From the NCBI GenBank assembly GCA_002404015.1, contig DHIW01000076.1, forward strand, positions 9,576-15,762: DNA of 6,187 nt, read 5' to 3'. The DNA comes from Chloroflexi bacterium UBA4736 (GTDB lineage Bacteria > Chloroflexota > Dormibacteria > Dormibacterales > Dormibacteraceae). This document shows positions 1,551-6,187 of this stretch, piece after piece. The notes under the pieces are model-generated. The model did not search any database. It was not told the DNA's origin and was given only the letters and a program-made list of their open reading frames with translations. Each line of letters begins with the position of its first letter. Positions within the stretch are counted from its first letter, which is position 1. The translations under genes and the position numbers were made by a program.

Positions 1551-1572
1551 GCAATGAGGTAACCCGTCTTGG
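1533..1572 (+). repeat. Decamer repeats with CGTCTTG core over the LCP1 start
   Basis: CGTCTTG occurs at 1535-1541, 1545-1551 and 1565-1571, that is at offsets of exactly 10 and 20 bp. The only non-matching decamer between them (1553-1562) holds the ribosome binding site, and the last copy overlaps the TTG start codon. The helical-turn spacing suggests a protein binding array on one face of the DNA, but three short copies could also arise by chance. Confidence 0.55.
1556..1560 (+). promoter_or_regulatory. Ribosome binding site deciding a TTG start
   Basis: GAGGT ends 8 nt before TTG at 1569, a normal spacing. The nearby ATG at 1554 is followed by AGG TAA and cannot be used, and no other start fits between this site and the Arg-rich N-terminus, so TTG 1569 is favoured. 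Confidence 0.7.
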
Positions 1573-3005
1573 ACAGCCCAGCAGGCTCGCGGTCGCGGGC
1601 CCGAAGCTCACGCTATCGCCGATCGCGGTTCGGCTTCCGCCGGCTGCTCGGGCTGGTGTTGCTGGCGGTGGTGGTCGGCGGCTTCGGAGCCCTTGCCTAC
1701 CGCACGGCAGGCTTCCTTAGCGGGGTGGCCCGAGTCGACAACCCACTCCAGGTCATCGAACCCGCCCAGGGGACGATCGCCTGGAAGCTGAAGCACGGCC
1801 AGCAGGTGAACGTCCTGCTGCTCGGTTACGGCGGCGTTGAGAACGACGCCCCCTACCTGACCGATTCGATGGTGGTGCTGAGCGTGGACCCGGCCAGCAA
1901 GCGTGTGGCCGAGGTCTCGATCCCCCGCGACCTGATGGTGGGCATCGACGCCTGGCCGGACCATCACCTGCTCCCGCAGAAGATCAATGTCGCCTTCTCG
2001 GTTGGGGTGGACGACGCCACCTGGACCAAGAAGCGACCGGAGTTCACGCGCCAGCGGGACGCGGGTGGGAAGCTCGCGGAGCAGTCGGTCTCGACGGCCA
2101 CCGGGCTGCAGTTCGACGGCTACGTGGCGGTCGATTTCAAAGCCTTCCGTGACCTGGTCAACGCCCTTGGCGGGGTGGACATCTGCCTCGACACCCCGCT
2201 CGACGACACCCAGTACCCGAACTACAACAACGGTTACATCCGCGGCGGCATCCACTTCCCCACCGGCTGCCAGACGGTGGACGGCGAGAAGGCACTCGAG
2301 CTCGCCCGCTCGCGCCACGCGACCCAGCCGGAGCAGGCCAGCGACTTCGGCCGGGCCCGCCGCCAGCAGCTCCTGATCAACGCCATCCGCAAGAAGGCCA
2401 CATCTGTCAACGCTCTCGCGAAGGCTCCCCAGCTGATGGATGCGCTGCAGAAGAACTTCCGCACGGATCTCGGCCTGGCCGACCTGAAGGCCGTCTACGA
2501 CTGGAGCGGAAAGCTTCCCGACACCGCCATCAACCGGGTCTCCATCACGGACACCGACCTGGTGGACGGCTACTTCATGCGGAAGGGCAGCTGCGGCGAC
2601 TTCTATGCCTACGTGCTGTGCGCCCAGGACCCCAGCTTCAAGGTCATGCACTCCTATTTCGGCAACCTCTTCCTCGACCCCGACCTGCTGAAGGAGGCGG
2701 CCCCTGTGGAGCTGGACAATGCCAGCCTGACCGTCAACGACCTTGGGCCGCGGGTCACCTCCAGCGTCCGCCAGCTCGGCCTCAAGGTCTCCGACCCGAT
2801 TCGGGGCAGAGCCGACCCCCACTCCGTCGTATACGACTATTCGGGCGGCAAGTACCCGCTGACGGCGAAGTGGCTGGCCGACTTCTTCGGAGCCACGGTG
2901 GTCACGCCCGCCTCGGGCGGCCCGGCCCCCGCCGGCACAGCCAGCCAGGGGTTGGTGGTGGTCTTGGGCAGCGACTTCGCCCGCCGGTGGCTCGGCCAGG
3001 CCTGA
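1569..3005 (+). CDS. LytR-CpsA-Psr (LCP) family cell-wall glycopolymer transferase 1
   Basis: A 478-residue type II membrane protein. LCP enzymes transfer lipid-linked glycopolymers (teichoic acids, arabinogalactan, capsule) onto peptidoglycan outside the membrane. An Arg-rich cytoplasmic N-terminus (1-25) precedes one membrane helix (about 26-47). The LCP domain (about 80-275) has NVLLLGYGG, LTDS with Asp99, SIPRD with Arg120 and Asp121, QKINVAF, VDFKAF, ARSR with Arg247 and Arg249, and DFGRARRQQ with Asp259, Arg262 and Arg265; these match the charged residues that bind the pyrophosphate head and metal. A C-terminal LytR_C-like part (about 377-471) ends in VVVLGSDF. Four cysteines (206, 234, 342, 351) could form two extracellular disulphides. 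It has its own ribosome site and lies upstream of a tandem paralogue, 49 nt away. The transferred polymer cannot be inferred. Confidence 0.92.
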   Translation: MDSPAGSRSRARSSRYRRSRFGFRRLLGLVLLAVVVGGFGALAYRTAGFLSGVARVDNPLQVIEPAQGTIAWKLKHGQQVNVLLLGYGGVENDAPYLTDSMVVLSVDPASKRVAEVSIPRDLMVGIDAWPDHHLLPQKINVAFSVGVDDATWTKKRPEFTRQRDAGGKLAEQSVSTATGLQFDGYVAVDFKAFRDLVNALGGVDICLDTPLDDTQYPNYNNGYIRGGIHFPTGCQTVDGEKALELARSRHATQPEQASDFGRARRQQLLINAIRKKATSVNALAKAPQLMDALQKNFRTDLGLADLKAVYDWSGKLPDTAINRVSITDTDLVDGYFMRKGSCGDFYAYVLCAQDPSFKVMHSYFGNLFLDPDLLKEAAPVELDNASLTVNDLGPRVTSSVRQLGLKVSDPIRGRADPHSVVYDYSGGKYPLTAKWLADFFGATVVTPASGGPAPAGTASQGLVVVLGSDFARRWLGQA

Positions 3006-3054: not shown

Positions 3055-4524
3055 ATGCGTAGAGCCAGGCCTCGGGCCCGGCGCTCCCGCTACCGCTATA
3101 CCAACCGTCTTGGCCGCTCGGCCCCGACGATGGTCGCCATCGGGCTGCTGGTCGGGGTGTTGCTGGGAACCAGTGTGGTGGTCGCTCGGACCGTCGGCTT
3201 CCTGCACAGCGTCGTCAACTTCTCCAACCCGTTCACGATCGTGCAGCACGAGATCGCCCCGCCCCCGGGCTCGATCGCATGGAAGCTGCGCCACGGCCAG
3301 CAGGTGAACCTGCTGATGCTCGGTGACGGTGGGCTCGAGAACGACTCCCCGCTTCTCACCGACACGATCATGGTGGTGATGATCGACCCCGGCTCCAAGC
3401 GGATCGTGGAGGCCTCGGTCCCCCGCGACCTCTGGGTCAAGATGGACGCCTGGGGCGACGGTCGCACCTACTCGCAGAAGATCAACGTGGCCAACCAGGT
3501 CGGCGGCTCCGACGCGGAGTGGCCGGGCAAGAAAGCCGAGTACACGGGGAAGGACGGGGGCGGCCACCTTGCCACGCACATGGTGAACCAGGTCACCGGC
3601 GTCCAGTTCGACAAGTACGTGACCGTGGACTTCAAAGCCTTCCGCGACATCGTGGACGCGGTCGGCGGCATCGACATCACGCTGGACGGGCCCCTGGACG
3701 ACTGCCACTACCCCGACTACCACAACGGCTACATCAACCACGGGGTGCCGCCCGGCTACCCCTGCCCGGCCGGCGCAGGCATCCATTTCAATGCCGGCCT
3801 TCAGCACATCAGCGGCGAGCAGGCGCTGGAGATCGCGCGGTCGCGCGACGCCAGCGAGCCGGACCAGGCGACCGACTTCGGCAGGGCCAAGCGCCAGCAG
3901 ACGATCGTCAACGCGATTCGCCACAAGGCCGCCTCGGCCGGGGCCCTGGTCAAGGCTCCCCAGCTGATGAACGCCCTCCAGAAGAACTTCACGACCGATA
4001 TGGACCTGAACGACCTGAAAGCGCTGTACGACTTCGCAGGAAGCCTGCCCGACAGCTCGATCACCCGGGTCGCGCTTACTGACACCGACCTCCTGACCAG
4101 CTACGTGCCGTACCAGCGGGGCAGCTGCGGCGACCGCCAGCTGTACGTGCTCTGTCCGGAAGACCAGAGCTACCAGGTCCTGCACCGCTACTTCGCGTCG
4201 CTCTTCATTGACCTCAAGGTCGCGGCCGAGAAGGCGCCGATCCAGGTCGCCAACGCCAGCCGGAGCTCGCTGGACCTCCAGGACAGGGTGACCACCACGC
4301 TGCGCCCCTTCAACCTGAACCTCGGCGCCGGCGTGCGCCAGCCGCTCCGGGCCACCTCGATCGTGTACGACTACTCGGGGGGTGCCTACCCGCAGACGGC
4401 AGCCTGGCTGGGCACGTACTTCAAAGCCCCCGTCCAACCGGCGCCGCCGGCCGCCGGCGGTTCGACCGGCTTCGTGGTGGTCCTGGGAAGCGACTACGCC
4501 AACGCCTGGTACGGCCTAGGCTGA
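3055..4524 (+). CDS. LytR-CpsA-Psr (LCP) family cell-wall glycopolymer transferase 2
   Basis: A 489-residue paralogue of the LCP gene just upstream, with the same build: Arg-rich N-terminus (1-22), membrane helix (about 26-47), LCP domain (about 84-290) and LytR_C-like end (about 395-480, ending VVVLGSDY). Catalytic-type residues are kept: Asp103 in LTDT, Arg124 and Asp125 in SVPRD, Arg262 and Arg264 in ARSR, Asp274, Arg277 and Arg280 in DFGRAKRQQ. KAPQLMNALQKNFTTD differs from LCP1 at only 2 of 16 positions. Compared with LCP1 it has about 12 extra residues before IHF (about 229-241), rich in Pro and Gly, with Cys237. Cysteines are 217, 237, 358 and 367. It ends 6 bp before the MeaB-type gene, so the two are probably co-transcribed. 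It should act on the outer face of the membrane; which polymer it handles is unknown. Confidence 0.92.
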   Translation: MRRARPRARRSRYRYTNRLGRSAPTMVAIGLLVGVLLGTSVVVARTVGFLHSVVNFSNPFTIVQHEIAPPPGSIAWKLRHGQQVNLLMLGDGGLENDSPLLTDTIMVVMIDPGSKRIVEASVPRDLWVKMDAWGDGRTYSQKINVANQVGGSDAEWPGKKAEYTGKDGGGHLATHMVNQVTGVQFDKYVTVDFKAFRDIVDAVGGIDITLDGPLDDCHYPDYHNGYINHGVPPGYPCPAGAGIHFNAGLQHISGEQALEIARSRDASEPDQATDFGRAKRQQTIVNAIRHKAASAGALVKAPQLMNALQKNFTTDMDLNDLKALYDFAGSLPDSSITRVALTDTDLLTSYVPYQRGSCGDRQLYVLCPEDQSYQVLHRYFASLFIDLKVAAEKAPIQVANASRSSLDLQDRVTTTLRPFNLNLGAGVRQPLRATSIVYDYSGGAYPQTAAWLGTYFKAPVQPAPPAAGGSTGFVVVLGSDYANAWYGLG

Positions 4525-4530
4525 CGTCTC

Positions 4531-5526
4531 GTGGGAAAGGAGCGCGACCTGGCGGCCGAGTTCCGCGAGGGCAACATCCGCGGCCTGGCGCGGGCGATCA
4601 CGCTGGTGGAGAAGCGCGACCCGGCGGTCCGCCACCTGCTGGAGGCGCTGCAGGACCGGGTGCAAAGACCTTACGTCGTCGGATTCACCGGCGCCCCCGG
4701 CACGGGCAAGTCGACTCTGGTCGACTGCCTGGTCCGGCTTCTGCGCGACCGCGACCAGGCGGTTGCCGTGATCGCGGTCGATCCCAACTCCCCCTACTCG
4801 GGCGGCGCGATCCTGGGCGACCGGATCCGGATGCAGCGCCACGCGCTCGACTCCAAGGTGTTCATCCGCTCGATGGGCGCCCGCGGCCACCTGGGCGGCC
4901 TGTCGGTCGCGACCCGGGAGGCGATCCGGCTGATGGGAGCGTTCGGCTTCGACGTGGTGATCCTGGAAACGGTCGGCGTGGGGCAGTCGGAGCTCGAGGT
5001 CGCGGCGATCGCGGACACCACGGTGGTCGTTCTGACGCCCGGGCTTGGTGACGGGGTGCAGATGATCAAGGCCGGGATCATGGAGATCGCCGACGTGTTC
5101 GTGGTCAACAAGGCGGATGTGCCCGGCAGCCAGAAGACCATCCAGGAGATCCGCTCGATGCTGAGCATGGGGCCCCGGGTCGCCTGGAGGCCCCCCATCG
5201 TGGGCGCCGTGGCGGCCCGCAACGAGGGGGTGGACGAGGCCTGGAAGGCGGTCGAAGCCCACCGCGCCCACCTCGAGGCGAGCGGCGAGGGCCGCCAGCT
5301 CTCCGAGGCGCGGCTCAAGGACGAGGCGGCCGACCTGGTAGGTGAATGGGCGCGCAGCGAGGCTCGGGCGCTGCTCGACCAGGACGCGAAGCTCTCGGAG
5401 CGGCTGCTCCACGACCGCATCCCGTACGCGGCCGCCGACGAGATCCTGACCCGGCAGCGCGCCGAGCTGATACCCGAGCGGGCACGCTCGAAGAAAAAAG
5501 CCGGGCGGATAATGGAGTCGCGATGA
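4531..5526 (+). CDS. meaB: MeaB/ArgK-family GTPase, chaperone of a B12-dependent acyl-CoA mutase
   Basis: A 331-residue G3E P-loop GTPase. MeaB proteins (human MMAA) gate delivery of adenosylcobalamin to the mutase, protect it from inactivation and help eject damaged cofactor, driven by GTP hydrolysis in the cytoplasm. Visible motifs: Walker [10 protein letters not shown] (54-62), [19 protein letters not shown] (83-101; family signature), ETVGVGQSE (146-154), NKAD for guanine recognition (193-196), and a C-terminal dimerisation-type region with a basic tail (317-331). Length is normal for the family. The GTG start at 4531 lies 6 bp after the LCP2 stop with only a weak upstream AGG; CTG at 4549 behind AAGGAG is a less likely alternative. 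Its stop overlaps the next start (ATGA, 5523-5526), coupling it to the mutase, which is its probable client. Older annotations call this family ArgK or LAO/AO transport ATPase, which is misleading. Confidence 0.95.
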
Positions 5527-6187
5527 AGGTCACGTACGGCGCCAGGGCAGATGGCGTCGAGACGTCCACGATCTCGGGCCTCCCGATCGAGCCCGTCTAC
5601 ACGGCGGCCGACGTTCAGGGCATCGACCTGGAGCCACCCGGCGAGTACCCGTACACGCGGGGCATCCACGAGTCCGGCTATCGCGGCCGCCTCTGGACCA
5701 TGCGGCAGTTCTCCGGCTTCGCGACCGCCGAGGAGACGAACCGGCGCTACCACTCGCTCCTGAAGAACGGGCAGACCGGCCTCTCGGTGGCGTTCGACAT
5801 GCCGACTCTGATGGGCCAGGACTCGGACGCGCCCACCAGCCGCGGCGAGATCGGCCACTGCGGGGTGGCCATCGACTCCCTGGCGGACATGGAGCGGCTG
5901 TTCGAGGGGATCTCGCTGGCCGACGTTTCGACCTCCATGACCATCAACTCGCCGGCCGCGATCCTGCTCTGCATGTACTTGGCCGTGGCCGAGAAGCAGG
6001 GCGTGCCCTTCACCAAGGTCAACGGCACCCTGCAGAACGACATCCTCAAGGAGTTCATCGCGCAGAAGGAGTTCATCTTTCCGCCCGAGCCCTCCATGCG
6101 GCTGGTCGTGGACTCGATCGAGTACTGCGCCGCCGAAGTGCCGCGCTGGAACACGGTCTCGGTGTCCGGCTACCACATCCGCGAGGC
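5523..6187 (+). CDS. icmA: B12-dependent acyl-CoA mutase large subunit, isobutyryl-CoA mutase type (5' part)
   Basis: The first 221 codons of a mutase, open at the window end. The family rearranges acyl-CoA carbon skeletons by a radical mechanism using adenosylcobalamin. Sequence blocks [21 protein letters not shown] (start at 42), [19 protein letters not shown] (84-102), [18 protein letters not shown] (167-184) and VSGYHIRE (214-221) place it in the methylmalonyl-CoA mutase large-subunit superfamily. The substrate-contacting positions are Phe63 (Tyr89 in Propionibacterium MutB), Gln181 (Arg207) and His218 (His244); spacings of 118 and 37 residues match exactly. Phe plus Gln is the known IcmA pattern (Phe80, Gln198 in Streptomyces), so the likely reaction is butyryl-CoA to isobutyryl-CoA. 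The ATG overlaps the MeaB stop and follows GGAG (5514-5517). The C-terminal half of the barrel and any B12-binding domain lie outside, so a split IcmA/IcmB enzyme cannot be confirmed. Confidence 0.88.

Follow-up and report, generated by a model that had tools for sequence, protein, structure and literature searches.

The window, by which we mean the whole 6,187-nucleotide stretch of DNA from Chloroflexi bacterium UBA4736 that was analysed, carries a run of genes that ends within one for an acyl-CoA mutase. A DUF4013 protein (223-864) precedes a forward-strand membrane protein (880-1464) that has a DUF4190 domain and, at its N terminus, a long proline-rich stretch; a similar proline-rich frame occupies the matching position in the related loci L001 and L003. 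Two tandem proteins of the LytR-CpsA-Psr (LCP) family follow on the same strand (1569-3005 and 3055-4524), were identified by profile matches and are probably cell-wall glycopolymer transferases; L001 and L003 have one LCP gene where the window has two. Directly 3' of this pair lies meaB (4531..5526, forward strand), encoding a GTPase chaperone with a predicted role in the loading and protection of adenosylcobalamin (TIGR00750, 315.1 bits against a cut-off of 240.75; PF03308, 303.7 bits), and its stop codon overlaps the start of the mutase gene by four bases (ATGA). The mutase frame (5523..6185, forward strand) begins with the ATG at 5523 and stays open for 221 codons to the end of the contig, beyond which the 3' end of the gene lies. 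We class its product as the first 221 residues of the large (catalytic, TIM-barrel) subunit of an IcmA-type acyl-CoA mutase. It scores 287.6 bits with PF01642 in a profile search and, being truncated, 301.8 bits with TIGR00641, for which the cut-off is 303.8.

The initial annotation had singled out Phe63, Gln181 and His218 in this frame, and reading codon by codon we find all three: Phe63 (TTC, 5709..5711) at the place of Tyr in methylmalonyl-CoA mutase, Gln181 (CAG, 6063..6065) where that enzyme has its carboxylate-binding Arg, and His218 (CAC, 6174..6176), all on the forward strand. The spacings given for them, 118 residues from Phe63 to Gln181 and 37 from Gln181 to His218, hold as well. To these we add Ala90 (GCG, 5790..5792, forward strand), a position that is Asp in HcmA and the other Ile/Asp/Gln (I/D/Q) enzymes; the His is kept in all three residue classes discussed here, namely Phe/Ala/Gln (F/A/Q), Tyr/Ala/Arg (Y/A/R) and I/D/Q. 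The best match of the window mutase in the PDB is 4r3u, the large subunit of 2-hydroxyisobutyryl-CoA mutase (E 3.8e-68). An alignment free of gaps had been asserted: by phmmer there is none against human methylmalonyl-CoA mutase over residues 15-221, and against 4r3u HcmA and 5req gaps occur only before residue 40. In the phmmer comparison with solved structures Gln181 aligns with the Arg of KEFMVRN, and the place of Phe63 is held by Tyr in the human and 6oxc chains and by Phe in 5req, which we take to be the engineered Y89F mutant of Propionibacterium MutB. HcmA reads Ile and Gln at the two sites, as the initial annotation had it for 2-hydroxyisobutyryl-CoA mutase; for isobutyryl-CoA mutase that annotation gives Phe80 and Gln198 at the Tyr and Arg sites. 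A solved structure matched in sequence at E 1.2e-163 settles the fold.

The nearest relatives of the window gene, 79-85% identical to it, are in Dormibacterota/Chloroflexota genomes. Among the 80 nearest loci, a set biased toward Gln since it was fetched using peptides that included the Gln stretch, 79 have F/A/Q and the His and one (L049) has Y/A/R and the His. Chance and sequencing error at the key codons were rejected as explanations because the same residues recur in 79 of the 80 loci. In the class to which genome G003 belongs, 37 of 110 genomes pass an E value of 1e-100, and all 37 fall within the 42 genomes of its order.

Positions 63, 90 and 181 covary in an alignment of 101 rows, which comprise 45 F/A/Q, 51 Y/A/R (these drawn mainly from whole-family searches) and four I/D/Q rows together with 5req, which reads F/A/R. 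In the corresponding tree, from which IcmF and PcmA were left out and in which Ecm is represented only by Streptomyces Ecm-type rows, all 45 F/A/Q rows lie on one side of a branch (SH-aLRT 91), the window and the Streptomyces IcmA-type rows (L035 and L041 among them) included. Within that group the window and seven further F/A/Q rows, all from the Dormibacterota order, cluster together at starred support of 100. HcmA and the I/D/Q rows are neighbours of the F/A/Q group (98, starred, for the two combined), and the Y/R rows, whether stand-alone or fused, lie outside both groups; the row L103 is labelled fused although it is 551 aa long, which inflates the change count of the fused label only. 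The Ecm-type L090 and L093, which we assume to be Ecm and used as outgroup, form a distant pair that retains Tyr and Arg, and the window does not belong to that clade. We also built a control tree after cutting out the 66 alignment columns around the determinants. There the F/A/Q label requires 2 changes, against 33.4 in shuffles, which is still compatible with a single origin, and the window still falls in two starred sets of F/A/Q rows, one of 8 and one of 25; the grouping of F/A/Q with HcmA loses its star and the I/D/Q rows scatter (3 changes). The Streptomyces F/A/Q loci in the tree are, we assume, IcmA. By its residue triplet and its place in the tree the window enzyme is thus filed with IcmA, and a MutB-type methylmalonyl-CoA mutase was rejected as an identification, since Phe63 and Gln181 stand where that enzyme has Tyr and Arg. 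Triplet and tree agree in upholding an IcmA-type active-site pair as against that of MutB, and they support, at the level of sequence, the reading of the window mutase as an enzyme that would interconvert butyryl-CoA and isobutyryl-CoA. Outside the 101-row alignment we noted a mutase-like frame, L286 (G186:C97:5598-7605), that has Leu, Val, Ile and Asn at the four key sites and lacks the conserved His; it may be an inactive partner or another kind of enzyme.

Gene names are a poor guide to these enzymes, as the initial annotation had warned. With the L003 orthologue as query, the named rows among the best 120 of 7999 matches are all methylmalonyl-CoA mutase (N-terminal domain, subunit or family protein). 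Plasmid searches for IcmF and PcmA references gave matches listed as unannotated, as methylmalonyl-CoA mutase (scpA, family protein or subunit beta) or as protein meaA. PMC7764203 describes IcmF as widely misannotated as methylmalonyl-CoA mutase, and PMC7238569 cites Tyr plus Arg at the two key positions as diagnostic of the latter enzyme. Isobutyryl-CoA mutases are at present steered into propionate pathways by their gene names, and the F/A/Q, Y/A/R and I/D/Q triplets offer a sequence-based means of sorting these mutases.

A separate gene for a small B12-binding subunit, which the initial annotation had recommended looking for, follows immediately 3' of the full-length orthologue in L001, L002 and L003, the closest relatives, and the window ends before that place. 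In these loci the full-length large subunit has 547-548 aa, with no match to a B12 domain in the L003 protein, and the small subunit has 134-139 aa, that of L001 scoring 173.8 bits with TIGR00640. The meaB gene lies 5' of the large subunit in L001 and L003 (the L002 contig begins too late to show it) and precedes the F/A/Q gene in most relatives, the gene order among the Dormibacterota relatives being meaB, F/A/Q mutase, small B12 subunit. Further 5' in L001/L160 are an LCP-type gene, a proline-rich and another membrane protein and three acyl-CoA dehydrogenases, then sucD- and sucC-type genes, two reverse-strand genes and a carboxyltransferase of propionyl-CoA-carboxylase (PCC) type, and beyond the carboxyltransferase a Y/A/R mutase, a methylmalonyl-CoA epimerase (TIGR03081, 118.8 against 114.95) and two SCP2 proteins. 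In L160-L162 the Y/R gene is accompanied by methylmalonyl-CoA epimerase, PCC-type carboxylase and succinyl-CoA synthetase-type genes, and no B12 subunit was found beside it in any of the three.

We counted subunits across the order of G003, which comprises 42 genomes, most of them drafts; their completeness is not given, and missing small subunits are for this reason weaker evidence. F/A/Q-type genes occur in 40 of the 42 (all but G164 and G185), Y/R-type genes likewise in 40 (all but G162 and G173), and both types in 38. The 30 F/A/Q loci L130-L159 are all F/A/Q with the His by residue, and the remaining F/A/Q genes of the order were assigned by 77-93% identity. Thirty-seven of the 40 Y/R genes could be read at the key sites, where all have Y/A/R and the His; the other three are fragments, with the Arg visible in that of G185. 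The F/A/Q and stand-alone Y/A/R genes share a contig in 16 genomes, with 12.9-18.4 kb between them. For scoring we retained the 26 genomes with both types, setting aside nine with a third, minor class and three with possible fragments of one. Exactly one mutase-type small subunit was found in 25 of the 26, each time 3' of the F/A/Q gene, and the remaining genome (G100) has two, one behind each of two F/A/Q genes; these copies (G100:C35 and G100:C56) each have their own small subunit and MeaB. None of the 26 has a small subunit behind the Y/R gene, nor was a PF02310 match seen beside the Y/R gene in the order among the matches listed. The other PF02310 or small-subunit matches listed are mainly frames of about 250, 450-600 and 1200 aa, plus a second small-subunit type in genomes with the minor class. 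A single strong MeaB match is present in 35 of the 42 genomes, mostly adjoining the F/A/Q gene, and two are present in G100 and G159; none was found in G002 (whose contig begins at the mutase), G157, G164, G171 or G185. Seven of the nine genomes with minor-class mutases have the second small-subunit type, and G169 holds a minor-class mutase without it. We observed a minor Y/A/R class (L205, L206, L208-L211 and L251) with 46-53% identity to the F/A/Q enzyme, mostly in genomes with a further small subunit, and mutases with Ile and Asp (and Gln where covered; L204, L207, L253 and L287) in genomes of the Dormibacterota order and elsewhere, likewise with a further small subunit.

In the phylum as a whole, PF01642 matches were found in 113 of 151 genomes. 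After this survey we picked 16 genomes, mostly with long contigs, many genomes with two matches lying outside the sample, and eight of the 16 have exactly two PF01642 genes (G010, G051, G093, G097, G115, G117, G129 and G155). All eight hold one F/A/Q and one Y/A/R large subunit, both with the His and of at most 563 aa, one small subunit and one strong MeaB. The small subunits were found at 56-63% identity, and in every case the small subunit gene is directly beside the sole strong MeaB gene, with no large subunit within the 6-9 kb read. Only G010, G097 and G117 are nearly whole on one contig; G115 has 6.3 of 6.8 Mb and G129 4.2 of 7.4 Mb there, and G051 and G093 are in smaller pieces. A further 25 genomes were reached through other F/A/Q loci, for which reason they are uninformative on the frequency of F/A/Q enzymes. 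Fifteen of them have two stand-alone large subunits, one F/A/Q and one Y/A/R with the His, and one small subunit. In G190 and G212 every large subunit has a small one to go with it, and G192, G193 and G194 combine an F/A/Q subunit with a long-frame mutase that has a B12 domain in the same frame. G188, G196 and G198 show a shortage of small subunits only alongside further large subunits or fragments, G189 is fragmentary and G209 has one of each.

Gene runs elsewhere place the same parts side by side. Y/R, epimerase, F/A/Q, small subunit and MeaB genes form one same-direction run in G020 and G034, and in G086 the Y/R gene is followed by epimerase, F/A/Q and small subunit genes with no MeaB match; the key residues were read for all six large subunits of these genomes. 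In G151 a small subunit from this family lies in a run with a Y/R gene, MeaB and two epimerase-type genes, the run containing no F/A/Q gene. In 13 genomes the stretch read around the small subunit contains MeaB and no large subunit. In a tree of 28 small subunits, those of G073 and G153, which hold F/A/Q only, nest with two genomes that hold both types (100/98, starred). The small subunit of G060, which holds Y/R only, joins three both-holding genomes weakly (82/45), and that of the Y/R-only G070 is unplaced. Small subunits of minor-class Y/R mutases group together (88/94). The minor-class small subunit of G179 is a long branch of unsure place. Two of the three small subunits from I/D/Q loci pair (99/96, starred) and the third is a long branch. 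That the small subunit persists in genomes lacking one or the other large subunit is in keeping with a general cofactor module.

Taken together, these observations make it probable, in our judgement, that the F/A/Q isobutyryl-CoA mutase and a separate predicted methylmalonyl-CoA mutase share one B12 subunit and one MeaB. The apparent sharing is predicted from the numbers and arrangement of the genes and from the trees. The F/A/Q mutase itself is of a known kind, and what appears to be new is a B12 subunit and MeaB common to two mutases of different substrate; we found no report of a small subunit common to two acyl-CoA mutases, or of these mutases in Dormibacterota, in the open-licence literature. 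In the mechanism we propose, Gln and Phe would replace the Arg/Tyr carboxylate clamp with a pocket suited to a neutral branched acyl group, MeaB with GTP would keep the small subunit open for loading with adenosylcobalamin, and the loaded small subunit would then cap either barrel, F/A/Q or Y/R. One cofactor module would in consequence serve valine and butyrate carbon (isobutyryl/butyryl-CoA) and propionate carbon (methylmalonyl/succinyl-CoA). For the family, PMC10481361 describes B12 as held between the Rossmann domain and the barrel, with a G-protein wedging them apart for loading. On balance we also favour a broader proposal, in which the small B12 subunit and MeaB are in many bacterial phyla a general module for alternative methylmalonyl-CoA and isobutyryl-CoA large subunits, and fused MutB and fused IcmF represent two exits from sharing. 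If one module docks alternative large subunits, the two reactions would compete for one pool of loaded cofactor. Were the sharing true, cells short of B12 would face an inherent trade-off between the two carbon routes, substrate choice would be exchangeable by a swap of the large subunit alone, and two enzymes would be matured by one MeaB.

We also considered that nothing is shared, the small subunit serving the F/A/Q enzyme alone and the Y/R enzyme either using an undetected B12 protein or being inactive. The small subunits of the order do lie 3' of F/A/Q genes with none found beside Y/R, and many of the genomes are drafts. However, the remaining PF02310 or small-subunit matches are mainly in the longer frames listed above, the Y/R gene retains Tyr, Arg and His and in L160-L162 adjoins genes for epimerase, PCC-type and succinyl-CoA synthetase-type proteins, the small subunit stands beside MeaB without a large subunit in 13 genomes, and Y/R shares a run with F/A/Q, small subunit and MeaB in G020 and G034 and the small subunit runs with Y/R in G151. 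We regard this explanation as unlikely, if still worth bearing in mind. It is less likely again that the window enzyme, though homologous to IcmA, acts mainly on another non-acid acyl-CoA (isovaleryl/pivalyl-CoA, methylbutyryl-CoA or that of a longer acid), a case in which the small subunit would still be shared. The Phe/Gln pair drops the carboxylate clamp without fixing the acyl group, and three acyl-CoA dehydrogenases lie 5' of meaB in L160; yet the Streptomyces IcmA-type genes fall within the F/A/Q clade, and butyryl/isobutyryl interconversion is, to our knowledge, the most frequent known role of enzymes with these residues. A title cited in PMC6759758 concerns the interconversion of isovaleryl- and pivalyl-CoA by a B12 enzyme, which is in keeping with such a substrate. 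That the enzyme is a methylmalonyl-CoA mutase tolerating Phe and Gln, as the library (TIGR00641, PF01642) and database names would have it, is very improbable given that no natural Y/R-clade row of the 101 has the F/Q pair, that 38 of the 42 order genomes hold a separate Y/R-type mutase, which in L160-L162 lies beside methylmalonyl-CoA epimerase, and that Tyr plus Arg is the cited mark of that activity. Equally improbable is a 2-hydroxyisobutyryl-CoA mutase, a candidate we rejected: HcmA is the best solved structure and is in the sister group, but its Ile and Asp are Phe63 and Ala90 in the window, and separate I/D/Q enzymes exist in relatives (L204, L207 and L253), whose genomes each carry an additional small subunit.

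Among known systems, MutB/MMUT resembles the window enzyme and its relatives in fold, conserved His and MeaB partner and differs in having Arg/Tyr rather than Gln/Phe; the full-length L003 relative, moreover, has no B12-domain match. IcmF (4xc6) likewise brings together B12 domain, G-protein chaperone and barrel, but in one chain, whereas here they are separate genes, and the window mutase scores 116.5 against a cut-off of 1500 with NF045497. An IcmF-like fused chain was rejected for the window, where meaB ends at 5526 and the mutase begins at 5523 in another frame. HcmA/HcmB (4r3u) has separate subunits, provides the closest solved structure and belongs to the sister clade, but is Ile/Asp/Gln in contrast to the Phe/Ala/Gln of the window. 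IcmA/IcmB of Streptomyces cinnamonensis offers a parallel in its stand-alone large subunit (about 550-570 aa), its Phe/Ala/Gln residues and, as seen in relatives of the window, its separate small B12 subunit; Streptomyces IcmA-type loci have the F/A/Q residues and fall in the same clade as the window. One Streptomyces genome (G005) has a 538-aa stand-alone Y/R gene (L087) and also a 737-aa Y/R mutase (L081), which is long enough for a fused B12 domain. Unlike IcmA/IcmB, the relatives of the window have meaB and the large and small subunits adjacent, and their small subunit is apparently common to the Y/R mutase.
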